64,000 nucleotides of DNA from Berberis thunbergii (taxonomy: Eukaryota; Streptophyta; Magnoliopsida; Ranunculales; Berberidaceae), in NCBI GenBank assembly GCA_003290165.1, contig QNQO01000557.1, forward strand, positions 310,001-374,000. The letters run 5' to 3'. Positions 13,522-58,865 of this stretch are shown in pieces. The notes below the pieces were generated by a model. It was not told where the DNA came from, searched no databases, and saw nothing but the letters and a program-made list of their open reading frames with translations. Both the position numbers and the translations under genes were made by a program. The stretch's first letter is position 1; every line of letters starts with the position of its first letter.

Positions 13522-15607
13522 TTATATCTTTTTACAAATTTTCTCCATGGTGAATTGCATCCTTGAATTAGAACATTGACCTTTACAACGAACCACCAAT
13601 GGACCATGAATTTTGTTCCCATAACCAGTAGTTTTAGTGCCTACTTCCAAAAACCCCTTTGAATCAACAGGACCATCACCATCATTAGTCTTAAGCTCCT
13701 TCATCTTCAATTTTATCCATTGTTGAACCTTATTTGTCATCTTTTAATCCTCAGTGACAAAGTCAACCATTTCATAGAAGGCATTGCACATCTTATCAAA
13801 CCGTTCATTTTCAGGCTTCATTGCCCCATCCGAATATACAATTTTAACCTTCTTGTGACACCTCTTAACATTTTTCATCCACTTCCGAAAAACATATTTT
13901 TCTAATACAACATGAATCTTTCTTTGAAACAATACTGTTAATACATATTTGCATAAGATCCCCATGAGCTCAAATAATTGGCAATTACACTTAATATTGA
14001 AGTCGTTATCATTAAAAAAAACTTTAAAATTGACTGAATATTGTCTATCTCCTATCGATATGTCTTCTGTAACATTGTATACTTGAAAGCCACTATCCTC
14101 CATAAATCTCTATGAAAGATACAACATATATTTCCTGCTAGCTTTTCTTGAAACTCGCTAAATTTAGTTGTGGTATAGGAAACTTGAAAATGTTTCTCTA
14201 CTGCATAAGAAGTGTTGCAAGGAAGTCACCGATTAAACGATCTAAAGTCCTCTTCAGCTTCTTTTTTAAACCTATTTCATAATGCATTCCCATATAGTTC
14301 TATGAATTGCTTAAGAGTGGTCTTCAAATTTACATAACCACAAAAAACATTCATGCTTTCACTCATTTGAGTCTCAAAAAATACTTCTTTTAAATGTTGG
14401 CGCCCAACGAATCATTGCATGGTATAATCCATTCAACCAATCATTTTCTTGAAGATTGTATTTCTCAATGAAACCATGCCAATTTCCTTCAAACTCTATG
14501 AGACAGGGAATCATAAATAACTCTTTGCATTGTAAACTTGATAGCCTCATATTGATTGCAACCGGACAGCTCTTTAAGAAACGTTTTCATAATATACCAT
14601 GAACACCATCTATGACGTGTGTTGGAAAATACAATTTCAATGGCCTTTTTCATTGCTTTGTCTTGATTAGTGATTATAGCAGTCGAAGCACAATCATTTA
14701 TACACACAAGCCAAGATTTGAAAAGACAAACAAATTTTTCTATTGTCTCACTACATATCAATCCACATCTAAAAAGTAATGACTGACCGTTAAGATTTAC
14801 CCCAACAAAAGGAGCAAATGACATCTCATACTTATTAGTTAAGTATGTAGTGTCAAAAGTAATAGCATCCCTAAACTCCTTGTACGTTGCTCTGCTCCAT
14901 GCATCGGCCCAAAAGACATTTCTTAACCTCCCTTCATTATCCAAATCTATCATATAAAAGAAATCAACATTGTTAGCTTGCATTTTTTTGGAAGTAGTTA
15001 TGAAGTGCCGTCACAACCCCCTCACCAAGTCTGAACCTTCTAATTTTATGCAGATAATTGTAACAATCTTTTTGGAAAAATGTCACAATATCATGCCCAC
15101 CAGCTTCAACCACACATGAAGAAAAACTCTCATTAGGCTTTATGGCCGCCCTGTCATTTAGTCAAACTTCTTCTTGACATATGAGTTCATAACTCGATTC
15201 TTCAGATAAAATCTTGATTTTTTTAGGCTCAAATCATGATTGTGATCAAATGTTATTCTTGTCACTAACATTGTTCCATTATGGCATACATGAGCTCTAA
15301 TCTTAGCCCGACATCCACATCTACCTGTAGCACACAATTTTACGACTCTTGTTGGCTTTACTTTCTTCTGCCCAGACTGGCCACCTGAAAAGATAAGGTA
15401 TTTAGGTTTTCCATTTTCATATTTTTCAGTATTCCTTACTTTCATCGAAAATTCTTTTATATTACCATAATCAAGATAATAAGCTTGGTACTTATCAATG
15501 TTGATGAATTCCATCCCTATTGTAGGTTCCCTTATCTCCATTAAATTTTCTTCATTTTTCATACATTTGTTATCTTCTACAATATTCATTCTTGAAATAT
15601 ACAACAA
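13522..15607 (-). pseudogene. FAR1/FHY3-like MULE transposase pseudogene
   Basis: Order from the N-terminus on the minus strand. 15158-15607: FAR1 DNA-binding domain (FINIDKYQAYYLDYGN ... GRCGCRAKIRA ... TRITFDHNHDLS, the WRKY-GCM1-type C-C-H-H zinc region). About 15000-15157: frame-shifted VVEAGGHDIVTFFQKDCYNY. 14489-14983: MULE DDE transposase domain (VFWADAWSRATYKEFRDAIT, FDTTYLTNKYEMSFAPFVGV, TAIITNQDKAMKKAIEIVF, HRWCSWYIM). 13744-14103: SWIM-type finger (IKCNCQLFELMGILCKYVL, the final His replaced by Tyr). 13522-13740: FAR1 C-terminal block GPLVVRCKGQ. The region 14104-14488 is full of stops. The family binds DNA and catalyses cut-and-paste transposition, and domesticated relatives are FAR1/FHY3 light-signalling regulators. 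Here it is dead. Confidence 0.9.
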
Positions 15608-21214: not shown

Positions 21215-22544
21215 AGCAGCAATTCGGTAAGCAAAATTCTGATGTTTGTTGGCTTATTGATAGTGGAGCCTCGCACCATATGACCGGTAATATTTCTATT
21301 TTATCTAATGTTCGTGACATTGCTCTGTCGCCTGTCGGTTTGCCCGATGGGGAACATACGTCTGTTGTTAAAGAAGGAACATGTGTTTTGCAACTCGGTC
21401 TTACTCTTCACCATGTGTTATTTGTGCCTAATCTGGCCGTGAATTTGATCTCTGTTAGTAAGTTGATTTTTGACACCAATTGCCTCGTGACGTTTACTGA
21501 TTACTTGTGTATTTTACAGAACCGCACCACGAGGAGCCTGATTGGATTGGGTGAGTCATGAGGAGGGGTGTGTACCATTATCAACCAATGGCGGTCGCGA
21601 CAACATCAGCGGCCCAAGCTCCAGAATCCTATGATACATGGCATCGTCGGTTGGGAGATCCTTCTTTTAAACCTATGTCGTTATTAAGTATTGATGGAAA
21701 TAAGGTCGATATGTCCGCCAAACAGTCTATTTGTGATATTTGTTGTCGAGCCAAACAAACTCGGTCTAGTTTTCCTTTAAGTAGTAATTGTGTTACGAAA
21801 AGGTTTGATTTGATTCATTGTGACATTTGGGGCCCTTATAGACAGTCTACTATTTCTGTTGCAAGATATTTTTTTACTATTATTGATGATTTCAGTCGTG
21901 CAGTATGGGTTTATTTGATGCATGAAAAAAGTGAGGCTAGTTTATTATTGAGAAAATTTTGTTCCCTTGCCAAAATGCAATTTGAAGCATCAGTCAAAAT
22001 AATTCGTAGTGATAACGGATTGGAATTCACATCTACACCCATGACTTCCTTTTATGCTCAACATGGCATTATACATCAAACCAGTATAGTCGATACCCCG
22101 CAACAAAATGGTCGAGTTGAAAGAAAACATCGTCATGTTTTAGATGTTGCCCGAGCCCTATTATTTCAAGCATCTCTACCTATTGAATTTTGGGTGAATG
22201 TGTCCTCACTGCCGCTCATCTCATTAACCGTACACTCACACCTCTTTTACAGGGCTTTACACCTCTCGAAAAATTATACTCCCAAACACCCTCTCTTACC
22301 CATCTCCGGGTTTTTGGTTGTTTGTGTTATGCCCATCATAAAAATAGCTCAAAATACAAAATTTCCCCTCGCAGTCGCCGATGTGTGTTCTTGGGTTATC
22401 CTCATGGAAAGAAAGGTTGGAAAGTTATGGATTTGGAGACCAATAAATTTTTTGTCTCAAAGGACGTTATATTTGATGAACAAAATTTTCCTTTCTCTCA
22501 ACCCAATGCCTCACCCATATGTCCTTCTTCTCCATTACCACTAG
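21215..22544 (+). pseudogene. Copia B protease and integrase
   Basis: Protease: CWLIDSGASHHMTG (active-site DSGA near 21258), then LTLHHVLFVPNLAVNLISVS (21398-21457). Pre-integrase zinc region: YDTWHRRLGD and ICDICCRAKQT (21630-21765). Integrase core: FDLIHCDIWGPYRQ (first Asp, about 21805-21845), IIRSDNGLEF (second Asp, about 22000-22030), TPQQNGRVERKHRH (Glu, about 22097-22137), FQASLPIEFW (to 22194). The frame changes between 21561 and 21558 (short overlap) and again near 22190, where integrase continues in another frame. Not functional as it stands. Confidence 0.92.
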
Positions 22545-23732
22545 CTAATGATTGGGCTTGGGAACAGTCGAGTACTGAGATCTTGGTGTCCCCACGTTTG
22601 GAGTCAGGGGGTGTTTCTTCCAATGGGTCTTCTTCTTCTCATGTTGAGCCGGTCAACACCCCTGCTCGGTCAGCTCCTGTCATGCCTACGGCCTCGGCGC
22701 CTCCTAGGGACGAGCAAGCTCTTGTCGTCCCATCTATTGTTGCACCAGATCAGGTCGTGACCACCCAACCTCTTGGTCGCGACCAACGCTCTAGACAGTC
22801 GTTTGCCCATCTCCGTGATTATGTATGCCACACAGCACAAGTTTTACACCCCCTCTTCGTCTCCTCCTTCCACCGGGTCCTCAGGTACGCGGTATCCTTT
22901 AGCCAATTATATTACTTGTGCAAATTTCTCGGCTTCTCATTCACAATTCTTGGCGGATGTAACTGCTAGGGTTGAACCCCGATCATTTACTGAGGCTGTG
23001 CAGGATTCTAATTGGCGTAAGGCCATGCAATCTGAAATCGATGCTTTGGAGCGCAATGGTACATGGACCATTACCAATCTTCCTACAGGTAAAAAGCCCA
23101 TTGGCTACAAATGGGTGTACAAATTGAAATATAATTCTGATGGTATTATTGAGCGATACAAATCCCGCGTTGTGGTCCGCAGGGACACTCAGATTGAAGG
23201 CATAGACTATGGTGAAACTTTTGCCCCGGTTGCTAAATTGGTCAGTGTTCGGACATTTCTTGCTGTTGCGGTTATTAAAGGTTGGGAATTACACCAACTA
23301 AATGTTAACAATGTCTTCCTTCATGGTGATCTTCATGAGGAGGTTTACATGCGTCTTCCGCCGGGATTCTCTTCTTCTCATCCTAATAAAGTTTGTCGGC
23401 TTCGAAAATATCTTTATGGTCTTCGCCAATCATCACAAAATTGGTTCGCCAAGCTTGTCACTGCTCTTCGTAATTATGGTTTTCTTCAGTCTCATGCCGA
23501 TCATACTCTGTTTACCTACCGTAAAGATGATATTTTTTTTGTCTGTTCTTGTCTATGTTGATGATCTTATTGTGGAGGCAATAATTCACAGGCTTTCATT
23601 GCTTTCAAGAAATATCTTAATGACTGTTTTCAGCTTAAAGATCTGGGGCCTCTCAAATACTTCCTTGGAATTGAGGCAGCACGCAACTCTTTCGGTCTTT
23701 TCTTATGCCAAAGGAAGTACACTCTTGATATT
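22190..23732 (+). pseudogene. Copia B integrase C-terminus and reverse transcriptase
   Basis: 22190-22545: VLTAAHLINRT, PLEKLYSQTPSLTHLRVFGC, RRCVFLGYPHGKKGWKVMDL, KDVIFDEQNFPF. A Ser/Pro-rich linker follows. RT from about 22960: WRKAMQSEIDALERNGTWTI, KPIGYKWVYKLKYNSDG, IERYKSRVVVRRDTQIEGID, YGETFAPVAKLVSVRTFLAV, LHQLNVNNVFLHGDLHEEVY, KYLYGLRQSSQNWF. A shift at the T8 run (23532-23539) separates the YVDD box (LVYVDDLI, about 23550-23575) from the rest. The usual DVNNAFL is NVNNVFL, so a catalytic Asp is replaced by Asn. Confidence 0.9.
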
Positions 23733-24509
23733 TTGAAGGAAGCGGGTCTTAGGGGTGCCAAGCCAGCTGCGACACCCATGGAGCAGAACCATACTCTTGC
23801 TCGTGCAACGGGTTGCCTTCTTGATGACCTGGGTCGCTATCGTCGACTGGTGGGACGTCTTGTCTATTTATCTATCACACGTCTGAATATTTGTTATGTT
23901 GTTCACATGTTGACCCAGTTTTTGCATGTGCCGCGGCAAGAACATCTCGACGTTGTGTTTCGAGTCCTTCGCTATCTCAAAGGGACCCCGGGTCAGGGTA
24001 TTGTACTTCGCTCAGATAGCTCTCTCCAACTCTATGCTTTCTGTGACTCGGACTGGGCCGCCTGCCCATTGACACGTCGTTTCCTCACGGCTTATTTCAT
24101 TCAACTTGGGTCCTCTCCTGTCTCTTGGAAAATGAAGAAGCAGTCCACTGTGCCTCGCTCATCCACGGAAGCTGAATATCGTGCCATGGCTGTAACTACT
24201 TGTGAGCTCACTTGGATGAAATCCTTCATGTCGTCTCTTGGGGTTTTCCATGCGAAGCCCATGCACCTTTTATGTAATAATCAAGCGGCACTTCACATCG
24301 CCTTGAATCCGGTCTTCCACGAGCGTACAAAACATATCGAAGTGGATTGTCACCATGTCCGGGAACAGTTACTCGCTGGGAATATTTCCACATCTTATGT
24401 TCCGTCTTCAAAGCAGCCTGCCGATATTTTCACTAAAGCCCTTGGTCATCAACAATTTCAGTTTCTACTTGGCAAGTTGGGTGTTCGAAATCCTCACTCT
24501 CCAACTTGA
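23733..24509 (+). pseudogene. Copia B RNase H, long open frame
   Basis: 259 codons without a stop, ending just before the PPT. Motifs: LGRYRRLVGRLVYLSITRLN, FCDSDWAACPLTRR (first Asp), SSTEAEYRAMA (Glu), LLCNNQAALHIALNPVFHER (Asp of CDNQAA replaced by Asn), TKHIEVDCHHVREQL, YVPSSKQPADIFTKALG. Typical copia RNase H with a KLGV C-terminus. Loss of the Asp in CDNQ suggests inactivity even where the frame is open. Confidence 0.92.
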
Positions 24510-26689: not shown

Positions 26690-27240
26690 GTTAACTAAAG
26701 CAAATAATAGCAATGAGTAATGGCATGGTTTAATGCTATATTGCTATGAATTTTAACAGTATCTAAAAGGAAGTATAAAAAATACAGTAACATGTCTGAA
26801 TCTATAGTATGTAATACATTAATACTTAGCGGACATATAAAAAATATATTTAAAAAATATTTTGTTATATTATGGTGTGTATCCTTGCCACATATCAGAC
26901 ATGCCATTTTGCCATGTGTGGTGCACTCAGCAATATAGGCTGAAAAATCGTGTATGGTCCACATCAAGATTGCTTTAAGATTGAAGGTTGTTTTACCGAA
27001 GGCATCATAAGAACTCACCCCATTGGCCCATAAAAGTTGTAAATCTTCTGTGAGGGGATGTAAAAATATATCAATATCATTCTTTGGATATCCTGGAATA
27101 AGTGATGTTAACATAATCTTATCACTTTTCATGCATAACCATGGAGGCAAGTTGTATGCAAACATAACTGGCTAAGTACTATGCTTGGAACTCAAATTAG
27201 AGAAGAGATTAAAGCCATCAATGGCCAATCCAATTTATAT
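26690..27240 (-). pseudogene. CACTA (En/Spm) transposase fragment
   Basis: The minus strand reads GLAIDGFNLFSNLSS (near 27230), a stop, then from 27165 MFAYNLPPWLCMKSDKIMLT, SLIPGYPKNDIDIFLHPLTE, DLQLLWANGVSSYDAF, FNLKAILMWTIHDFSAY and CTTHGKMACLICGKDTHH. This is the signature of the plant CACTA TNP2-like transposase: YNLPPWLCMK, PG--NDIDV-L-PL--DL--LW--GV--YDA, LLWTI-DFPAY and the C--C zinc site. The C-terminal continuation after 26850 is not conserved. The catalytic core is incomplete, so this is a fossil. Confidence 0.88.
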
Positions 27241-29575: not shown

Positions 29576-29580
29576 GAGAG

Positions 29581-29940
29581 TAATAGAGACCTTGACCTTT
29601 TTATTGGAAATCAAACCACCTAGATCCTTTGATTGGGAATCAACCACCAATAAACTAAAATAAAAACTTGTATTACTTGCCTAAACTCTATTACATCATA
29701 TGTATTTATAACTGAAAACAAAAATAATACTTCCTAATTGAATTCAAACCTAATTCTAATCAAACAATAACTCCTAATTCAAAACAAGCTAATATTCCCT
29801 AAAATAATACTTCCTAATTGAATTCAAACCTAATTCTAATAAAAAAATAACTCCTAATTCAAAACAAGCTAATATGCCCTAAAATAGAATATTTACATTC
29901 TAATCTTAAGTAAATACTATATAGGATTGGTATCCTAACA
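29581..29940 (-). repeat. 3' LTR of the LARP1 retroelement
   Basis: 360 bp. Contains an 80-bp tandem duplication (unit starting AATAATACTTCCTAATTG at 29723 and 29803), also present in the other LTR, so it predates insertion. Confidence 0.92.
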
Positions 29941-30085
29941 TCCCACGCCGCCTGAAACAAGGCTTGTCCTCAAGCTTGAAAATCTGGAAACGGATACGAA
30001 ACTGCTCGTAGTCTTCCCAAGTAGTTTCTTCCACAAGACGGCCGATCCACTTGTTAAGCCAGCGTGTAACAGACTTATTATTGTG
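29941..30085 (-). pseudogene. Leftover pol C-terminus (gypsy chromodomain-type tail)
   Basis: The minus strand reads VTRWLNKWIGRLVEETTWED then YEQFRIRFQIFKLEDKPCFR and RRG, ending one codon before the 3' LTR. This is the familiar end of Ty3/gypsy (Tekay/Reina/CRM-like) polyproteins: W----EE-TWED---------F-LEDK. It is in a different frame from the LARP1 part. It shows that the parent was a gypsy element and that the capture replaced the middle of gag-pol. No PPT of the usual length is visible; GGCGGCGTGGGA precedes the LTR. Confidence 0.85.
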
Positions 30086-31620
30086 TTTAAATAATCCTCA
30101 ATCAAGTAGTTTATCTGACGCTTAGTTGATTGGGAATCGTTTGACTTTTGCTTTGTCAAACAAGAGAGACTCCCAGTTCTAGGTTCAATAAAATCAACAG
30201 TTTCAACATCAGATCTGATACCGAAGTTGGTATTGAACTTCCCAGCATGTTCCCGAGCAATTAATTTAGTTGAATCTTTGTCTAATGCAGACATAAATTT
30301 GGTTTCAATCTCTAAAGCGTCAATGTTTGAACCCACGGAATTGACTATATTGTCTGAATCCCCATTTTCTCCATGGAAAGTTTCAACTATTCTGTCAGTC
30401 AAGACCTGCTCATTTTCATATTCTGAATTTTTCAGACAGTCAAAATCTGAAACTCCTTTATTTGATGGTAAGTCGTTGTTTGCATCCTTATTTAAAGGAA
30501 ATGTGGTGTGTCCTCCGGTGATGTCATTTTTACTGTTATCATTGCACTCACTGAGCCTTTTCATAGTAGCCTTTACATCGGCTTGCATCGTATGATCATT
30601 TGAAGATGTATTCTGTCCAGAAGCCAAAAGCCACTTCGACCAGCCATCACGCTTTCGTACTCTGCCATCCTGGACTTCTATCGTACTAGAACTATGTATT
30701 ACATCTAGAATTAAAGGAATGTTTGTAGTCATTCTCTTCACTTTATTAAAGTCAGCAATGTTGGTTATCGGAACCCATCCTTGGTCATCCATCAAAGAAA
30801 TCAAATGGTTGTCCTTTTGCAAATTCTCAGTACTGAAATAATACTCAATTTGCTTAACAATATTAGCCCTCAAAGGCAATGTCTCTGAGGCAGTTGCGGG
30901 AATCCAAGAATGTTGAGGATGTTGAATAACGCGAAGAGGAGGACCTTCTAATGCGTTTGGATGATGATACATAGGGGTAGGGCCAGAAAAACAAGGGCCC
31001 CCCATAAGCCCTGGACTAGGACCAAGATAGGGAGGAGGCCACACAAAAGGCCTTGGTCCACTTTGTTGCATGCTAATATTTTCTCTCGGATTGAATGCTC
31101 GATGATGGCGCCGTATTTTATTTAAACGACCATCATGTTCTTGTACAACTTGTCATCGATTAGCAAAATTGTCAGCATATGCATTGGGCTCTCTCGGTGG
31201 AGGCTGAAAGCTTCTATTATAATCCATAGCACCAACATGACCAGGTGGTGCACCAAAAGTATGTGCGGGGGTTCCATATGGAGATCTTAACATATGAGGA
31301 TCGAAGTTTCCAGGATAATGTTGGTAAGCATGAAGAACATGAATGTGTGGAGCAGGTACAACTGGTTGAAAAACAGATAGCATTGGTGGTAGGCGATAAG
31401 GCATGGTTACAGGAAAGGGTGGCATGCCATGTGAAGGATGGGTATGCTTATTAGTACTCGCTTTCTGATGATGGGCCGATGGATGTTTATGGTAAGGATT
31501 ATTGCTACCAAGCCCATTTGTTTTTTGTGGCACGAATGGTCCCTGCACAGGATTGTGCCTTGGAGTGGCGGGCACTGTTGGTGGTGCCTTGGAAACAACA
31601 ACATCAAAAATAGGAGATTC
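30086..31620 (-). pseudogene. Captured LARP1-type La-related protein, N-terminal half
   Basis: Plant LARP1 binds mRNA 5'/3' ends through a La module plus C-terminal DM15 repeats and controls translation and decay. Here the frame covers the Pro/His-rich N-terminal region (HPSHGMPPFPVTMPYRLPPM, then VVPAPHIHVLHAY), the DPNAY-like REPNAYADNFANR block, RRHHRAFNPRENISMQQSG, and a complete La motif at about 30628-30876: LPLRANIVKQIEYYFSTENL, HLISLMDDQGWVPITNIADF, NKVKRMTTNIPLIL and VRKRDGWSKW. It continues into the acidic spacer up to about 30090. DM15 repeats are absent. One in-frame TGA (31153-31155) interrupts an otherwise open frame that is continuous with the upstream gag-like part. No introns interrupt it, as expected for an RNA-derived copy. 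Confidence 0.92.
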
Positions 31621-31812
31621 CTTGCTAGAATTAGGAATAATTGGCCGTTGTTGTTCCGGGTGAACGTATGGGGCCGGGCGATATGGCTGGAGATTCCTTA
31701 ATGCCTCAAGAATAGCGGCATTGGTGGTCTCAAGTGCGTGGAGGTGGGATGAGATCCCAGTAACTTGAGCAGTAAGCGCATCGAATTTCTCGTGCAATTC
31801 AGCAACAGACAT
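31621..31812 (-). pseudogene. gag-like N-terminus fused to LARP1
   Basis: From the ATG at 31812 the minus strand reads MSVAELHEKFDALTAQVTGI, then SSHLHALETTNAAILEALRN and LQPYRP, a coiled-coil-like start as in gypsy gag leaders. It is in frame with the LARP1 segment downstream. The exact junction (about 31600-31680) is inferred. The open frame extends further upstream through the leader to 32127 in the LTR, but I choose 31812 because a translated LTR and primer site is unlikely. Confidence 0.65.
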
Positions 31813-32101
31813 TATAAAAAGGGTGGTTGGTGTGGTGTGAATATCCGAAATAAGATTAAGGGACGGTCTAGGGAGAATCCCTATGGGTGCAAATAGCGAT
31901 GAAGGGACGATCTCAGAATTGGATGAATCGATGATTAAAGGGACGATTTCTGAATTGGATGGCTGCGATGGAGAAGTGGAGACTGGACGACGGTTCCTGT
32001 TGCTGTTGCGAGGATGGTGATTGGGAGTTGCTGATGACGGTGAGTTTTTTTTTTTGACAATGGTGAAGTAACAAAAAAAAATTTGGCTCAAAATCGATGA
32101 T

Positions 32102-32113
32102 GCTCTGATACCA
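32102..32113 (-). other. Primer binding site of the LARP1 retroelement
   Basis: The minus strand reads TGGTATCAGAGC, the perfect initiator-tRNA-Met complement, two bases inside the 5' LTR. Confidence 0.95.
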
Positions 32114-32115
32114 GA

Positions 32116-32473
32116 TAATAGAGACATTGACCTTTTAATTGGAGATCAAACCACCTAGATCCTTTGATTGGGGATCAACCACCAATAACTAAAATAAAAC
32201 TTGTATTGCTTGCCTAATCTCTATTACATCATATGTATTTATAACTGAAAGCAAAAATAATACTTCCTAATTGAATTCAAACCTAATTTTAATCAAACAC
32301 TAACTCCTAATTCAAAACAAGCTAATTTTCCCTAAAATAATACTTCCTAATTGAATTCAAACCTAATTCTAATCAAACAATAACTCCTAATTTAAAACAA
32401 GCTAATATTCTCTAAAATAGAATATTGACATTCTAATATTAAGTAAATACTAAATAGGATTGGTATCCTAACA
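32116..32473 (-). repeat. 5' LTR of the LARP1 retroelement
   Basis: 358 bp, aligned end to end with 29581-29940. It has the same internal 80-bp duplication. Right flank GAGAG is the target duplication. 32479-32530 next to it holds a short duplication of GAGCACAACGAGAGGGAGA-type sequence belonging to the host. Confidence 0.93.
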
Positions 32474-32814
32474 GAGAGTAGCTCGGAGAGCACAACGAGA
32501 GGGAGATGGAAAGCACAACGAGAGGGAGAGTGGGAGCATAGCAGACAGGGAAAGCAGAGCAAGAGGGATAGGTTGACCAGAGAGGTTTCTTTCCTTTCCT
32601 TGTTTTCTTTCTTTTTTTTCCTTCCTTCTTTTCGATCGAGAAGGAAACTTTGGCGCCTTGCATGTGTTTGTGAAATTTTATCTCCCACTCACTTTGACAA
32701 CATTTTAGCAATGTTAAGGGATCTCAAATTGGACAAACCTTGGGCTTTTCATAGCACCAAGTGCAAAACTATTATTGCCACATGCTAGTAATGGGCAATT
32801 ATGGTGTAGTGAAA

Positions 32815-33990
32815 GGTATCATCTGGTCCCAGGAATGCTTGTTTGAGTCCTTCTGGCAGTGGAGCTAGGTCGACTTTTGGGGTCCTCAAAGTGGATGGCT
32901 GTGGTTTCTCTCTTTCTCTTGGCAACTCCTCAAAGCATGGTTGCCATTGTCGTCCTCCTTTATCCGTTGACCCTGAAACATAAAAAACTTTGTCAAGATA
33001 AAGTGGACTCTCAAAATTGGAAATACAAAGGAGGTACTCTAAAGATTCATAATTGTCGCTCATGAGAGCCTCTTTTGATATCAGTGTGACTATCATGTAA
33101 GTGTGATAATAGTCATCATTATCACATGGTTGCTTTCCAATGTTGAATATGTTGACCTCCAGAGTCATGTTCCCAAAATACAGTTTCATTAGACCATTTT
33201 TGCAATTGATAAGAACATTAGCTGTAGTAAGGAAAGGTCAACCTAGAATGATTGGAACTATAAACTCCATATTAACCACAAAATGGGTATCCAAGATAAG
33301 AACGACAATGAGGTAGTAGAACTTATCGATTTGCAATACATCATCGACTATTCCTCTTGGTTTCTTAGTCGATTGATCGGTCAGTTGCAGTACCACAAAT
33401 GTGGGTTTGATCTCTCCTAGACCCAGTTGCAAGTAGATAGAATAAGACATTAAACTCACATTTGAAGTAGATAGAATAAGGCCTTAAACTCACATTTGTT
33501 CCTAGATCCAGCAAAACTTGGACGAACTCATGAGTTCGATCTGGCAGGTGACCATGGGACACCCTGGATCTTTGTACTTGGGTGGTATCTTCTGCTCTAT
33601 CACCACACTTACCTATTCAATCAAGAAAGCAGTCTTGTTGACATGATGCGTTCTCTTGATGGTGCATAGATTCTTGATGACTTTCGCATAAGTTGGTACC
33701 TGTTTAATCACATGCAGAAAAGGTTGGTTAATCTTAGCTTCTTTCAGATGTTCTAGAATCTCACCTTGTATTTTTGGACTTTTTCCAGTAGGTCGGAGCA
33801 CTTTGGGAAAGGGGACTTGGACCGGAATGTTTTTATTTGGCTCATCCTCAGGGGTGCTCTCCTTTGTACTTGGAGAGTTGCCTGTAATGGTTAATGGGCT
33901 TGGTCCATCTAATATCTTACCACTCTGAGTAGTTATGCATTGACCTCTTTGATGTTCTAAGAGTTTGAAGTGGAGGTTCGTGCCATATGT
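32815..33990 (-). pseudogene. Athila-like gypsy protease region relic
   Basis: The minus strand, in order: EILEHLKEAKINQPFLHVIK, QVPTYAKVIKNLCTIKRTHH, KIPPKYKDPGCPMVTCQI, VQVLLDLGTNVSLRPYSIY (protease site, LDLG for L-D-G), QLGLGEIKPTFVVLQLTDQS, PRGIVDDVLQIDKFYY, IIPIILG-like, NGLMKLYFGNMTLEVNIFNI and PLPEGLKQAFLGPDDTF. This is the Athila pattern between gag and RT. A 44-bp tandem duplication at 33431-33498 breaks the frame inside the protease. RT and everything after is missing to the left, where the putative CACTA end lies. Confidence 0.85.
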
Positions 33991-41739: not shown

Positions 41740-42830
41740 TCATGGTCATGGTAGTTCTTCACCCTTTGTATTTTCTAACCAATATTTCATTGGTTTGTTG
41801 ATATTTATTACTTTGTATGGCCCTTACCAATTCAGATTCAGTTTGTCTATGCCTGGTTCCTTTGTGTTGAGTTGGATTTTCTGGAGTACCCAATCACCAA
41901 CATTGAATGTGCAAGGTTTTACTTTCCTATTATAAAACTAGCCATACGTTGTTGGTAGGTTGTTGTTTTGATAAAAACCTTTTTCTTTCTTTTCTTCAAG
42001 GAGATCTAATCCGACTCTTAGTGTTTCATTGTTGTCTTCTGCTTGGAATTCTTCTGTTCTGAATATTGGCATACCAACTTCTACGGATATCATTGCTTCA
42101 GCCCCGTATGCAAGGGTGAACAGAGTTTCTTCTGTTGGAGGCATTTTCGTTGTTTTGTATGCCCAAAAGATGCTAGGTAGTTCGGATGTCCACAATCTTT
42201 TTGATGCTTCAAGCTTCCCTTTGATTGCCTCTAGGATCGTCTTGTTGGTGACCTCGGCTTGCCCATTTGTCTGTGGATGGGCAGGTGCTGAGAAGTGTTG
42301 TTGGATGCCTAGATTTGTGCACAGCTCTTTAACCTTCTTGCCTTCGAATTGCTTCTCGTTGTCCATGACAATTACCCTTGGGATTCCAAATCTACGTATT
42401 ATGTCTTTCCAGAGAAAATTTTTCAACTTGAGCTTCTCCTATCTTTGCCAATGGTTCTACTTCCACCCACTTAGTGAAGTAATATACCGCTAATAGAAAG
42501 AATTTATTTTTGTCAGACATTGAGAGTGGTCCTTCGATGTCCATCCCCCATTGTGCAAATGGCCATGGATTGCTCATTGGGATTAAATTTTGGCTTGGCA
42601 TGTGAGTATATGGGATAAATCTGTGACATTTGTCACAAGTGCAAACGAGTTTATTTGCATTCGCTTGCATTGTCGGCCAATAATATCCCAGTGTTAGGGC
42701 TTTGTGGGCTAGCGTTCTTCCTCTTGGATGGTTTCCACATGTTCCATGATGAATCCCTTACAGGATATACTCAACATCATTAGGCGAAAGTCATCTTAAT
42801 AGCGGGCTAGTGACAGATCTCTTTTAGAGT
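41740..42830 (-). pseudogene. Tat B integrase relic
   Basis: Zinc region remnant CTCDKCHRF (about 42630). Core: WGMDIEGPLS (42535), AVYYFTKWVEVEPLAKIGEA, IPRVIVMDNEKQFEGKKV (42360), HPQTNGQAEVTNKTILEAIK (42260, catalytic Glu), FWAYKTT and FTLAYGAEAMI. C-terminal GPYKVINIKKPMKYWLEN lies at 41760-41830. The second Asp sits in VMDNEKQFE. Frames shift at about 42400 and at the C-terminus. 41201-41740 is the non-coding 3' region between the two opposed genes; unlike Tat A it has no tandem array. Confidence 0.88.
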
Positions 42831-43560
42831 CTGTCGTTGATCACCGTGTATAGTGCGGCTTGGTTTGGCAGTTTTTGGGTCTCCATCTTGTCCTCCTGAA
42901 GTTTTTTGTTTATTATATACACGAGGATTTGAATTGTCCAATTATTTTCCTGGTCTGTTTCGCACGTCTCTTGCACTTGGTTTTCCAGTATGGAACTCTC
43001 CCGCGTCGTGATGAGTGGATTATCATTTTCTTTAGTTCGTGATGCCTCTTTGGCTAGATCACCAGTTCTTTTATTCTCCGCTCTTGCACATCGACAAATG
43101 GTTGTAGTCTGAAAACTTTCTATCAGCTCAACAGTCTTTTGGAGGTATGCTTTCATCCGAGCATTTTGTACTTGAAACTCGTCGTTCAGCTGGTTGATGA
43201 CAAATTTCTAGTCAGTGAGTCACTAATCTCTTTTATTCCCAAGTGTTTTCCTAATTGTAGCCCGAAAATCATTCTTCGTATTCAGCTTTGTTGTTCGAGG
43301 CTTTGAAATTGAATTTTATTGCCTTTTCTTATGTTACGCCTTCCGAGTTGTACATGATCATTCCATCTCCACTTCCCACCTTGTTGGATGCTCCGTCACA
43401 ACGGAGGATCCATTCGTGGATTGTTTGTTTGGTTTGTTCCTCTTCACGATTGCCATCATGCTGGCGGTCGCTGTTGCCTATGAATTTTGTCATAAAATCT
43501 GCTAATGCTTGAGCTTTTATTGCGGTTTTGGGGGAATAGCTGATGTTGAACTCCCCGAGT
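42831..43560 (-). pseudogene. Tat B second RNase H (aRNH) and linker
   Basis: Linker: KWAIELGEFNISYSPKTAIK then AQALADFMTKF (43480-43575). aRNH: WILRCDGASNKVGSGDGM (first Asp) and, in another frame, FNFKASNNKAEYEE (Glu). 42824-43156 holds the end with RCARAENKRTGDLAKEAS, where RADALA has become RTGDLA. Frame broken at 43330 and 43150. Confidence 0.82.
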
Positions 43561-43580
43561 TCTATTGCCCATTTCACCAT

Positions 43581-44650
43581 TATTTAGAATAGCTCTAGTT
43601 TGTACAATACTGACCGAAGTGGTTGTTCGGTCATGACAATGATTGGGTGAGCTTGGAAGTATGGTCGTAGCTTTCTTGAAGATACGATTAGGGCGAGCGT
43701 TAGTTTCTCCAAAACTGGGTAGTTGATCTCCGCATCTACAAGTGTTTTGCTGATGTAATATACTAGATTTTGGGCGCCCTTCTCCTCCCATATCAATACT
43801 GAACTTACTGCATAGTAGGACACAAACAAGTATAAGTGCAACGTTTCCCCGGTGCTTGGTTTTGATAGCAGCTCTTTGCTCCCAATGTACGCTTTCAAGC
43901 TTTGGAAAGCCTTTTCGCATTCTTCATTCCACTTGAATGTCTTGTTCCTCTTCAAGATTTTGAAGAAATGTAGACATTTGTTCGAGGACTTGGAAATGAA
44001 TCTATTTAAAGCCGCTATCTTGTCATTGAGACTTTGCACACCCTTTATGTTCGTTGGTGACTACATGTTGAGTAGTGCTTGTATCTGTTTTGGGTAAGCT
44101 TCGATTCTTCTTTGGTTGACCATGTATCCGAATTTTTTTCCTGATTCTACTCCAAATGTGCATTTCTTCAGGTTCAGATTCATTTTGTATCTTTGGAGCT
44201 GGGAAAAGGCATGTTCGAGATCTCTGATATGGTCTGTTTGGCATAAGACATCGACTAACATGTCATCGACGTACACCTCTATCGTCTTACCGATTTGGTC
44301 TCTGAACATTCTACTGACTAGTCGCTGGTACGTGGCTCCTGTGTTTATTTAGTCTGAATGGCATCACCTGGTAGCAGTATGTACCTCTCTCCATTATAAA
44401 GATGTTTTTTCTTGGTCAGGAGGGTGCATATGTATATGATTGTACCCAGAGTACGCATCTATGAAGCTCAGGAGTTTGTGTCCAACAATGGCATCCACTA
44501 TTTGGTTTATGCGTAGGAGTGTGAAACTGTCTTTTAGGCCGGTTTTGTTCAGATTGGTGTAATCTACACACTCTCCACTTGTCGTTCGTCTTTACCAACA
44601 TCGTGTTAGCTAACCAGTACGGGGTAGTGAGATTCCTTGATCATTCCTAC
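43581..44650 (-). pseudogene. Tat B reverse transcriptase and RNase H relic
   Basis: RT: LVKTNDKWRVC (44570), frame-shifted INQIVDAIVGHKLLSFIDAY-type block (44450-44520), YCYQVMPFRLN (44350-44390), EVYVDDMLVDVL (YVDD at about 44262-44273), HAFSQLQRYKMNLNLKKCTF. RNase H: MQSLNDKIAALNRFISKSSN (44039), FKWNEECEKAFQSLKAYI, SVLIWEEKGAQNLVYYISKT, YPVLEKLTLALIVSSRKLRP, YFQAHPIIVMTEQPLRSVLY. The RNase H frame is open for 152 codons; RT is broken into three. Confidence 0.88.
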
Positions 44651-54398: not shown

Positions 54399-55880
54399 AT
54401 GCAGGCTATGCAAGATCCAAAGTGGCGTCAGGCCATGAGAAGTGGGATCAATGTTCTAGAATCCAATAACACTTGGACTTTACAGCCTATTCCTCCTGGA
54501 AAGCATCCGATTGGTTGTAAATGGGTCTATAAGATCAAACTTAATCCAGATGGTAGTGTTGAGCGCTACAAAACTCGTCTTCTCGCTAAAGAATACAGTC
54601 AAGTTGAAGGTATTGATTACAAAGAGACCTTTGCTCCTATTGCTAAATTAGCTACTGTTCATTTTCTCATTGCTTTTACAGTAACATAGGGTTGGCATTT
54701 ATGTCAACGATGTTTTTCTTTATGATGATCTTTTTGAGGATATGTACACGAGTCTTCCACCTGGATTCGGCCGAAAGGGGGTGACCCGGGTATGCAAGTT
54801 GAACAAGTCTTTATGCCAATGGTTCCTTAAGTTATCCTCTGCTCTCATATCAGCATACTACAATCGGTCTACGACTGATTACTTATTATTTGTCCGATTC
54901 AAGGATAACAACTTTATTGCAATTCTCGTATATGTTGATGATTTAATATTGGCAGGTAATGATCTCCAATACATTGAAGAAATAAAGAAATTTCTGGCAG
55001 GAAAATTCAAGCTCAAAGATTTTGGAAAATTGAAATATTTCCTTGGCATTGAAGTCGAGAGGTCATCCAAAGGGATTGCTTTATCTCAACCAAAATATGC
55101 ACTTAAAATATTGGAAGACACATGGTATCTTGGAGCAAAGCCTTCACATTATCCTATGGATCAAAACTTGGTGCTCACACATGATGATGAAGATTTACTA
55201 CCAAAACCCGCAACGTACCGTAGGCTCGTTGGAAAGTTGATATACTTAACGATCACGAGACCATATTTGGTTTATTCTGTACATGTCCTAAGTCACTTTA
55301 TGGACAAGCCCTGAATACCACATTTGGATGTTGTTCAAAAGGTCTTGAGGTATATCAAGGCTTCACCAGGACATGGTATTTTTTTATCTTCATTACAGTT
55401 GAAAGCTTATTGTGATGCAGATTGGGCTAGATATAGAGATACTAGGAGATCCATTATAGGTTATTGTGTCATGCTTGGCAATTCACCAATTTCTTGGAAA
55501 ACTAAGAAACAAACTACAATGAAAAGATCTACAGTTGAAGCAGAATATAGGGCCATGGCTTCCACATGTTGTGAGTTAACCTGGTTGAGGTACATTCTTA
55601 ATGATTTGCACATTAATCATCCTCAGGCAGCCCTCTTATTTATGACAACCCTGCACTCCATATTGCTTCTAATCCAGTTTTTCATGAGCTAAAGGAAGCA
55701 TATCGAGATTTATTGCCATTTGATTAGAGAGAAGATACAAGAGGGTACTATTCAAACTAAGCATGTTGGAACACTACATCAACTGGCAGATTTATTCACT
55801 AAAGCTTTGAGCACTTATCAATTTGATAATCTTCTTAGCAAGTTGGGTGTTACAAACATACACTTCAACTTTAGGGGGAG
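54399..55880 (+). pseudogene. Copia C reverse transcriptase and RNase H
   Basis: RT: MQDPKWRQAMRSGINVLESN, KWVYKIKLNPDGSVERYKTR, EGIDYKETFAPIAKLATV (54399-54689). A stop and a deletion remove the DVNNAFL block (54690-54720). Then YTSLPPGFGRKGVTRVCKLN, AILVYVDDLILAGNDL (YVDD near 54935), FKLKDFGKLKYFLGIEVERS. RNase H: YRRLVGKLIYLTITRPYL, AYCDADWARYRDTRRS (Asp), KKQTTMKRSTVEAEYRAMAS (Glu), TIQTKHVGTLHQLADLFTKA (55750-55810). Ends LLSKLGVTNIH just before the PPT. Confidence 0.88.
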
Positions 55881-56056
55881 TGTTAAAGAAAGAAAATTTG
55901 CATAGGTTAAATAATAGGAAAATCAGTATAGAATATGTTAGAAAAGTTAGAATAGAATAAGATGTCTTAGATTTCCTGTTTCCACAATATTAGGTAAGAG
56001 TTTGCTATATAAGCTTGTCAATTCAATACAATTCTATGAATATTTTCTTTTCAGCA
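55871..56056 (+). repeat. PPT and 3' LTR of copia C
   Basis: TTAGGGGGAG (55871-55880) then TGTTAAAGAAAGAAAATTTG. TATATAAGCTTG and CAATTCAATACAATTC lie at 56005-56032. The right end, taken at TTTTCAGCA (about 56056), is uncertain because no second LTR exists to compare. Confidence 0.7.
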
Positions 56057-56395
56057 ATAGGCCTTATCTGAATAAAGATGGGGAAGAACACCACAACTAT
56101 AGTTATTATCATCACAAACACTGTTTTCCACCCTAATATGACATAATTGATTTGGTTTTTTTACCAAACAACTGGATTTTTACACCATTTGCTCCCGTTA
56201 AAGGCCTACGATTATTGCACCAAGTTTTTACGAACCCGAAAAAGGATTGGAGGAGTGCCTACAAAATTCATGTAATGAAATTACAAAAAGGTTTTCTCAA
56301 ATCTTATCTATATTTTGATTTGCTATGTACAAGTTTTACCTAGTAAGCCCCTATTAGATGGACGGCAATGCATATATTAGCGAATATGATGAGCC
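56057..56395. other. Spacer between copia C and copia D
   Basis: Frame 56152-56343 (WIFTPFAPVKGLRLLHQVFT ...) has no motif I recognise. Nothing else supported. Confidence 0.5.
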
Positions 56396-56400
56396 AAGAA

Positions 56401-56619
56401 TGTTAAGCGTAAATAGCACAACTAATGTTGTTAGTTAGTTAAGCAGTTTGTTAAGCATAAAGGTTGTTAGATTACCAAACACAAATGTTGTTACTGATAT
56501 TGTTAGTTTGTTACAAGTACTTTCTATATAAACATATCCAATTTACATTTGTAAGAAGATAATGAAATACAGAACTTTGGTTCATGACTTCCTTCAGAAA
56601 TTAACATGGTATCAGAGCC
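56401..56619 (+). repeat. 5' LTR and primer site of copia D
   Basis: LTR 206 bp (TGTTAAGCGTAAATAGC ... AAATTAACA), TATATAAACATATCC at 56525. TGGTATCAGAGCC (56607-56619) follows at once, a perfect initiator-tRNA-Met site. Confidence 0.95.
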
Positions 56620-56703
56620 ATCTCATTTCCCATTTTCTTTAGAAGTTCACATTGTTTTTCCTTTCGACCGTCTCCTTCATTTCAAGCTTTCTTAGTAGTA
56701 TCA

Positions 56704-57655
56704 ATGGTGGATTAACCCTCTTCAAATGTTGCATCACTCACAAATTCTGTCATGACAGAGTCCAAACCAGTGGTGTTCACTCATGTTCTGTCTGTCAAAC
56801 TCGATGAACACAACTACTTGTTGTGGAAACAACAAGTGTTGGCAACAATCGAAGGTCATAAACTTCAGAAATTTATTGACAAAGATTCATTTCCATCACA
56901 ATTTCTATCGGCTGAAGATCAAGCAAATAGCATTGTTAATTCAGAGTTCATGAACTGGGAGGCAGCGAGATCAACTTCTCTTTTCATGGCTTTTTTCCTC
57001 TATGACTCAACCATTGCTCACAAGGTAGTAGACTATGAAACTTTTGAACATATTTGGAAAACTCTTGAACCTACTTCAACTCTCAAACAGTAGCCAAAAT
57101 CTCCCAGTTCAGAACTCAATTGCATAATTTCAAGAAAGGAGATCTTTCTATCAACGATTATCTACTGAAATTGAAATCTGTCATTGATCAATTAGCATCA
57201 GTAGGACATCCACTTTCTTCAAGAGATCATATAATGCAATATTTGATGGATTACCACAATTATATGACACTTTTGTAGTCTCAGTAAGCTCAAGATATGA
57301 TGATTATAATGTAGCAGAGGTCGAGTCTCTGTTGCTTGCTCAAGAGACAAGAATTGAACGACATTTGAAAGATCTTGATATTTCTAGCTCTATAAATGTA
57401 GCTCACACATCATACAATCCATCACCAAAGTCCTTTGTTTCTAATTCACCTAGAGGTGCAAGGTATCCATTCAATTCACAGACTCAATCACCAAGAGGAG
57501 GAGCAAGAACTGGATCTGGGAGAGGATATAAGTATTCTGGTTATCAGTCTGGTAGACCCCAATGTCAAATATGTGGCAAACTTGGTCATCTTGCTTTCAA
57601 ATGCTATAATAGGTTTGATAACAATGTGTCAAATCCATGGAACTCCAATCTATAA
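56704..57655 (+). pseudogene. Copia D gag
   Basis: ATG at 56704 is followed by a stop three codons later. The frame resumes at 56752: VKLDEHNYLLWKQQVLATIE, EFMNWEAARSTSLFMAFFLY, VVDYETFEHIWKTLEPTSTL. It continues in another frame with AKISQFRTQLHNFKKGDLSI and NDYLLKLKSVIDQLASVGHP (57090-57220). 57332-57655 ends with a CCHC knuckle CQICGKLGHLAFKC (57562-57603). Typical copia gag, with a premature stop and two shifts. Confidence 0.88.
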
Positions 57656-57763
57656 ACCTCGTCATCAAGCACACCTTCTCATACAACAAATCTAGCACCT
57701 CACCATGCCTATTCTACTGCTTCAAGTCAGTATACTCATCCAAACTGGGGAGCTGAATCTCAG

Positions 57764-58865
57764 TTGTCAATACAAACAAGTGGTGCTTCTTCATCAACAG
57801 ATCATCGGTGGTATCCTGACTCTAGGGCAATTGATCACTGCACTCCTTTTGCTCAGAATTTGGCATCCTCAGTGCCTTATCATGGCAATGAACAACTTCA
57901 TGTTGGTGATGGTACTGCATTGCAAATTCAAAATATTGGTCAGTCCTTCTTACACTCTTCAAAATTTTCAAGAACACTGCTTCTTAAGAACATTCTTCAA
58001 GTCCCTAAACTTACTAAAGTTTTGCTAAGTGTTTCAAAGTTTGCAAGAGACAATGGAGTATTCTTTGAGTTTCATCCTGACTTGTGTTTTGTCATGGATC
58101 ATGTCACCAATCAAGTCCTCTTGGAAGGGAAGCTTAACAAGGGACTTTATCTTTTCCCTTCCATGTCCCTTGCTACCCGAAAGTCAGTGTCTTCTTCAAC
58201 TACTGCAAGCTCTTCTGGTTGCAATCAAACAACTTCAGTTCATACAACCACAACCACATCTGCGTCCCCTTCTTCTTTGCATATTTGGCATGCTCGCCTA
58301 GGGCACCCCTCATTCCCACTTGTGCACAAGATACTCACTCGATGTAATATTCATGTTTCTAACAAGAATAATGAATTGTGTTCTTCATGTTGTTTAGGAA
58401 AAATACACAAATTTCCATTTTCTTGTTTTTCTACTATATACAATAAACCATTAGAACTCATTCATACAGATCTTTGGGGTCCTGCTTCCACTGTTCTTCT
58501 AATATATATAGGTATTATCTTTATTTCATTGATGCCTATGGTAGGTTCACTTGGGTATCGCCAAAGGGGTCGTGGTCGATTGGTTAAGGCTTTGTGGACT
58601 TGTTCCACAGATCCTTGCTTCGAGACCCACTGGAGGCATCTTTATTTCGGGGTGGTATTCGACCCGTAGGTCGCATCTCGGGACTAGGTTACGGATCCTA
58701 GGCTGAAAAAACCGGCTTGCCTTTCAAAAAAAAAAAAGGTTCACTTGGGTATATTTTTTAAAGAACGAATCTGATGCTTATTCTACTTTTATTAAGTTCA
58801 AATCCCAGGTTGAATTAGACTTTGGTCTCCCTATCAAGTGTATTCAATCGGATTGGGGAGGGGAG
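57764..58865 (+). pseudogene. Copia D protease and truncated integrase
   Basis: Protease WYPDSRAIDHCTPFAQNLAS (57808): the active-site D-S-G-A has become D-S-R-A. Then LHVGDGTALQIQNIGQSF, NILQVPKLTKVLLSVSKFAR. Pre-integrase: IWHARLGHPSFPLVHKILTR and CSSCCLGKIHKFPFS (58280-58425). Integrase: ELIHTDLWGPAS (58455, first Asp). After the SINE it resumes with RFTWVYFLKNESDAYSTFIK and IKCIQSDWGGE (58840-58862, second Asp), where it stops dead at the 3' LTR. Confidence 0.88.
58544..58752 (+). mobile_element. tRNA-derived SINE with perfect 15-bp target duplication
   Basis: Element body 58559-58737 (179 bp). Target duplication GGTTCACTTGGGTAT at 58544-58558 and 58738-58752, identical. A-box-like GTGGTCGATTGGTTAAGGC near 58572, B-box-like GCTTCGAGACCC at about 58617, 3' end CGGCTTGCCTTTC followed by A12. 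Same family as 2001-2095. Inserted into the integrase codons of copia D. The identical duplication points to a recent event. Confidence 0.95.

Follow-up and report, generated by a model that had tools for sequence, protein, structure and literature searches.

We identified, on the minus strand of the 64,000-nucleotide stretch of Berberis thunbergii DNA analyzed here (the window), a 2.9-kb LTR retrotransposon copy that carries roughly the N-terminal half of plant LARP1 in the sense orientation, probably gained through template switching onto a spliced LARP1 mRNA. The LARP1 segment between the LTRs contains no intron-sized insertion, and the present copy is broken by one in-frame stop before the La motif. 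Capture of host genes by LTR elements is already known in plants, and the LARP1 element adds one more example to a known kind, because surveys count hundreds to thousands of genes in LTR elements per plant genome: 672 in rice, 1343 in sorghum and 424 in maize are reported in PMC3726574, and 1398 (rice) to 3898 (potato) across the six species reported in PMC5664825. What the locus contributes is a clean added case of an LTR element that has captured host mRNA, with LARP1 as the cargo. An earlier sequence-only reading of the locus was confirmed in its observation and partly supported in its interpretation; its view that "a few" plant LTR elements behave in this way is not supported by the survey counts.

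Both LTRs start with TGTTAGGATACC and end with CTATTA on the minus strand, and they are 94.4% identical over 360 positions (blastn). Differences were found at 22 of the 358 aligned sites (8 transitions and 14 transversions), plus 2 gap columns, corresponding to the K2P distance given in Table 1. The flanks match over 7 bp in full (GAGAGTA); since the TA belongs to both LTRs as their own common end, a 5-bp GAGAG duplication is the natural reading. The perfect primer-binding site TGGTATCAGAGC is what we take to be the complement of the 3' end of initiator tRNA-Met, and the candidate polypurine tract before the 3' LTR, GGCGGCGTGGGA, is G-rich and not purely purine. Paired direct LTRs, a short target-site duplication and a tRNA primer-binding site at the 5' LTR, by which LTR retrotransposons are recognized, were all found, and the sequence-only reading had described each of them correctly. 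Because the LTR pair, the 5-bp duplication and the primer site enclose the whole chimera, we conclude that it integrated as one unit. Coincidence or an assembly error is barely credible and was rejected: the LTRs are matched but diverged, the target duplication is in place, the primer site lies 2 bases inside the 5' LTR, and the strand is consistent throughout.

Table 1 Features of the LARP1-carrying element and its borders, in window positions
Feature	Position	Strand	Remark
Target-site duplication GAGAG, left copy	29576..29580	.	Read directly
LTR retrotransposon unit, 2.9 kb	29581-32473	minus	LTR pair, target duplication, primer site
3' LTR, 360 bp	29581..29940	-	K2P 0.064 vs 5' LTR
Pol-like tail, short	29939..30073	-	Frame differs from LARP1
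Candidate polypurine tract, imperfect, G-rich	29941..29952	-	Adjoins 3' LTR
LARP1 N-terminal half, confident part	30244..31572	-, LTR-sense	Profile match; envelope 30082-31668
La domain PF05383	30697..30861	-	Pfam E 1.3e-22
In-frame TGA stop inside LARP1 segment	31153..31155	-	Upstream of La motif
Gag-like start, ATG at 31815	31669..31815	-	In frame with LARP1; border with LARP1 approximate
Primer-binding site TGGTATCAGAGC, 12 bases, perfect	32102..32113	-	2 bases inside 5' LTR
5' LTR, 358 bp, TG...TA ends	32116..32473	-	Internal 86-bp direct duplication at 80-bp offset
Target-site duplication GAGAG, right copy	32474..32478	.	Read directly

The 86-bp stretch occurs twice, at an offset of 80 bp, in each of the two LTRs (29581-29940 and 32116-32473). 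No second copy of the element was found within the window (a blastn comparison of the two at E ≤ 1e-3), and the remaining self-matches of the element come from the duplication inside each LTR. CpG dinucleotides are absent from the LTRs (0 in 358 bases and 0 in 360 bases), whereas no CpG depletion is seen in the leader/gag-like part or in the tail.

For the interior of the unit, we built a LARP1 profile from those LARP1 hits, 107 among the 156 fetched proteins, that are 800 aa or longer, and ran it against the three frames of the unit, to which its E value refers. The profile matched translation residues 301-743 (443 residues) at profile positions 67-517 of 943 with E 9.3e-129. The alignment runs in a single frame on the LTR-sense strand, with a largest insertion of 3 residues and no frameshift, and the other two frames gave no LARP1 profile match at E ≤ 10. 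The LARP1-type interior that had been proposed from the letters was thereby upheld, and it is comparable to that of maize Bs1. GC contents of 0.53, 0.42 and 0.31 at the three codon positions of the LARP1 part (443 codons) provide a coding signature.

The best solved structure for the La region is the human LARP1 La motif 7soo (E 1.8e-16). When set against solved LARP1 structures, the motif is slightly longer (30628-30876, the extent first claimed for it) than the Pfam La domain at 30861-30697. In the segment La alone passes the Pfam cut-off; the C-terminal DM15/HEAT repeats (PF21071), which Pfam finds in the full-length LARP1 proteins P0042 and P0044, are absent, as the profile match stops at 517/943. 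The captured segment thus resembles plant LARP1A (DM15-type) in having the N-terminal region and the La motif, and differs from it in lacking the C-terminal DM15/HEAT half and in carrying an in-frame stop. The reading frame opens at ATG 31815, remains open until the TGA at 31155-31153, beyond which it runs on in phase as far as the LTR edge, and a separate predicted frame of 378 aa from ATG 31071 contains the La motif. Because the stop precedes the La motif, translation from the element's own start probably yields no LARP1-like RNA-binding protein in this copy. Three residues, Q333, Y336 and F348, are reported as critical for poly(A) binding by human LARP1 (PMC9458460). By a residue mapping that we took from the alignment with the solved LARP1 structure, the segment keeps the residues at Q333 and Y336 and has His at F348, as do the Aquilegia, Coptis, Stephania and lgn52 rows; this gives a faint hint that the poly(A)-binding site of the captured segment may be intact.

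The stretch that opens at ATG 31815 had been called a gag-like start. The frame from this ATG is present, and we infer the gag identity from position: the stretch matches no Pfam family above the cut-off, and its residues 1-62 have no relative at E ≤ 1 in the database search (17 candidates). The short tail had likewise been read as the C-terminal end of a gypsy pol. It presumably resembles the end of gypsy pol (about 30073-29939), and it has no Pfam match in its own frame, with which the LARP1 frame is out of phase. Pfam detected no retroelement domain (gag, protease, reverse transcriptase or integrase) in the two long ORFs, the gag-like start or the tail, and the element interior of about 2.2 kb is mostly LARP1. 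A Ty3/gypsy parentage of the element is likely. As no pol domain was found, its mobilization presumably took place in trans. In the leader upstream of the gag-like start, a 22-base motif, GGGACGATYTCWGAATTGGATG, was seen by eye twice on the plus strand (31904-31961). In viral and prokaryotic collections the search pattern was matched by 1, 20, 40 and 0 stretches, none of which was confirmed.

Of the 6390 candidates in the database search, 189 proteins reached E ≤ 0.001. Among the matches listed (120 of the 189), a Macleaya cordata LARP1 was the best (E 2.6e-117), followed by proteins of Aquilegia, Coptis and Protea. The top identity was 49% over 486 columns, to one Macleaya cordata LARP1, so there is no close host LARP1 among the hits. 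In a LARP1 tree of the segment and 31 of the 156 fetched proteins, the segment grouped with nine Ranunculales-side rows (including lgn52 and lgn56) with a support of 97/95 over 1034 columns, and the same grouping was obtained from the captured part only (505 columns, support 90/86). Constraining the segment to five Proteales rows (p 0.076) or to eight core eudicot rows (p 0.16) was not rejected, nor was pairing it with Macleaya, Kingdonia or Stephania alone (p 0.27, 0.28 and 0.45, respectively); placement with four monocot rows was rejected (p 0.0099). The captured segment therefore appears to group with Ranunculales LARP1, with other eudicot placements remaining compatible. Its end branch measures 0.77 against a median of 0.21 and a next longest value of 0.59 (Stephania) among the 31 other LARP1 rows. 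A recent capture from an ordinary host gene does not in itself explain so long a branch, which counts against such a capture. The point is weakened by two facts: a row whose close relatives are also in the tree necessarily has a short end branch, and other lines are fast as well, the one leading to Musa in the monocots totaling about 0.84 from its fork.

The maize LARP genes surveyed in PMC11057080 all have introns, with 14 exons in ZmLARP1a, which has DM15, and 6 in ZmLARP1b-e, so that the intron-free LARP1 half is best explained by a spliced template. We favor template switching between co-packaged RNAs because LARP1 is flanked within the unit by element sequence on either side. By this route, LARP1 mRNA would have been packaged together with the RNA of the gypsy-like element, and reverse transcriptase would have jumped into the LARP1 mRNA and back; about 440-530 LARP1 codons would now replace most of gag-pol. 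Integration, with enzymes supplied in trans, may have occurred about 2.5-6.4 million years ago at assumed rates, and neutral decay of the cargo after insertion would have left the frame with its present stop ahead of the La motif. In PMC5664825, pepper NLR retrogenes are attributed to spliced mRNAs captured by LTR elements. The review PMC13317346 takes its examples of such switching in plant LTR elements from element sequences and puts Bs1 under transduction, so that template switching is here the probable, not the established, RNA-level route. The RNA-mediated capture claimed in the sequence-only reading is supported by inference from the lack of an intron-sized insertion in the LARP1 half.

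Of the marks of a LINE-type retrogene, neither a 3' poly(A) nor a target duplication of its own around the cDNA was found. No A-run longer than 6 occurs in 30000-31720, and the junction zones share one 8-mer against 0.56 expected. The sense strand, the truncation at both ends and the absence of an A-run longer than 6 together argue against LINE retroposition of a whole mRNA. Assembly at the DNA level, with an intronless LARP1 retrocopy (for example LINE-made) entering a defective LTR element by recombination or insertion before that element moved, is an unlikely alternative that requires two events, not one, and must also accommodate a LARP1 piece truncated at both ends and without a poly(A) run (longest A-run 6), although it would likewise yield an intron-free segment. 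The junctions, which are not mappable and whose zones share only the 8-mer mentioned above, leave room for it, and in dicots LINE-1-like elements reportedly take part in RNA-based gene duplication (PMC4838847). The LARP1 part has an observed/expected CpG ratio of 0.52, compared with 0.94 for the leader/gag-like part and 1.04 for the 142-base tail; both LTRs have a ratio of 0, and the window as a whole has 0.61. The contrast is loosely compatible with parts of different origin and makes no clean split.

From the K2P distance of the LTRs, the insertion is 2.5, 4.6 or 6.4 million years old at 1.3e-8, 7e-9 or 5e-9 substitutions/site/year, respectively; these rates are assumed, 1.3e-8 being the rate used in PMC5664825. 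The LARP1 frame contains 1 stop in 512 codons (31623-30088). Under simulated neutral mutation at half the LTR divergence (d = 0.032), 1.9 stops are expected and at most 1 stop was seen in 43% of runs. Neutral decay after insertion thus fits the cargo and suffices for it, and selection on the cargo is not needed, because 1.9 stops are predicted and one is present. At a neutral d of 0.10, at most 1 stop was seen in only 2.4% of runs. Purely neutral evolution over d ≥ 0.10 is therefore disfavored, and the long branch mostly predates the insertion. It was either mostly inherited from a fast host lineage or built inside the element under constraint, both being compatible with the data.

Indels and conserved columns bear on the same issue. 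About 4.5 indels are expected at the LTR rate, which rests on 2 gap columns, against no frameshift in the LARP1 match, a point that speaks against simple decay. Conserved columns were compared over 107 other LARP1 rows for residues 74-420 only, with a fill of at least 90% required of each column. Changes in the segment affect 1/19 of the invariant columns (single other rows at most 1/20) and at 1/24 of the 99%-conserved columns (at most 1/25). At the 97%-conserved columns it is the most changed row, with differences at 3/29 against at most 2/31 in the other rows.

A Gag-LARP1 fusion kept functional over several transposition rounds, with the long branch representing evolution inside the element, is very improbable. 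The end branch of 0.77 against a maximum of 0.59 in the 31 other rows would suit it, but a fast host lineage accounts equally for the branch, as the values for Stephania and the monocot line to Musa indicate. The gag-like start and the LARP1 segment share one phase, and no frameshift is present despite the indels expected; in-phase joining, however, has a one-in-three chance. Whereas only 1/19 of the invariant columns have changed, the 97%-conserved columns have changed more than in any other row, the single stop is accounted for by neutral decay since insertion, and no second copy is known. A more elaborate form of this idea, in which a gypsy-like element hijacked the poly(A)-binding La module of LARP1, used it within a Gag-LARP1 fusion to protect its own RNA or help to package it, and kept it working through repeated transposition, the present copy being a recently decayed member, would be a longer shot still.

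Maize Bs1 reportedly lacks most of pol. As in the LARP1 element, host exons without introns lie between its LTRs (PMC13317346, PMC4717578). According to PMC13317346, three genes (proton ATPase, xylan endohydrolase and glucanase) have contributed pieces to Bs1, whose chimeric ORF is transcribed and translated, whereas the LARP1 element carries one gene and its ORF is broken. Soybean GmaRetroS15 is also described as an LTR element with host exons and no introns, namely casein kinase exons 5-9 (PMC4717578), but it is a TRIM-type element with a gene other than LARP1. The LTR-captured genes of rice, sorghum, maize, pepper and potato likewise place host gene sequence inside an LTR pair; they were called genome-wide, whereas the LARP1 element is a single locus with detailed anatomy. 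About 72% of the retroduplicated NLRs of pepper are stated to lie in elements without gag or pol coding potential (PMC5664825). Among the matches listed from the open-licence literature (titles and the starts of abstracts), there was no report of LARP1 or La-domain capture by an LTR element, and the word LARP is absent from the main texts of PMC13317346, PMC3726574 and PMC7264820. In Arabidopsis, LARP1 is reported to act in translation and heat-induced mRNA decay (PMC11057080). Other copies of the element, if there are any, would allow the capture to be dated and would reveal whether an element ever keeps an RNA-binding cargo.

Several other mobile-element remnants were observed in the window. 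Pieces of a copia-type element (integrase, GAG-pre-integrase and RVT_2) lie on the plus strand at 21558-24509, and more copia-type fragments (RVT_2 and GAG-pre-integrase) at 54742-58669. Beside the LARP1 element, a minus-strand ORF at 32785-33189, with nothing above the Pfam cut-off, presumably resembles a section of a gypsy polyprotein. The decayed pol-like pieces that lie at 41938-44039, also on the minus strand, include RNase H and an integrase core just below the Pfam cut-off, and relics of DNA transposons, represented by a MULE transposase domain and Transposase_21, occur at 14489-14983 and 26695-27165.
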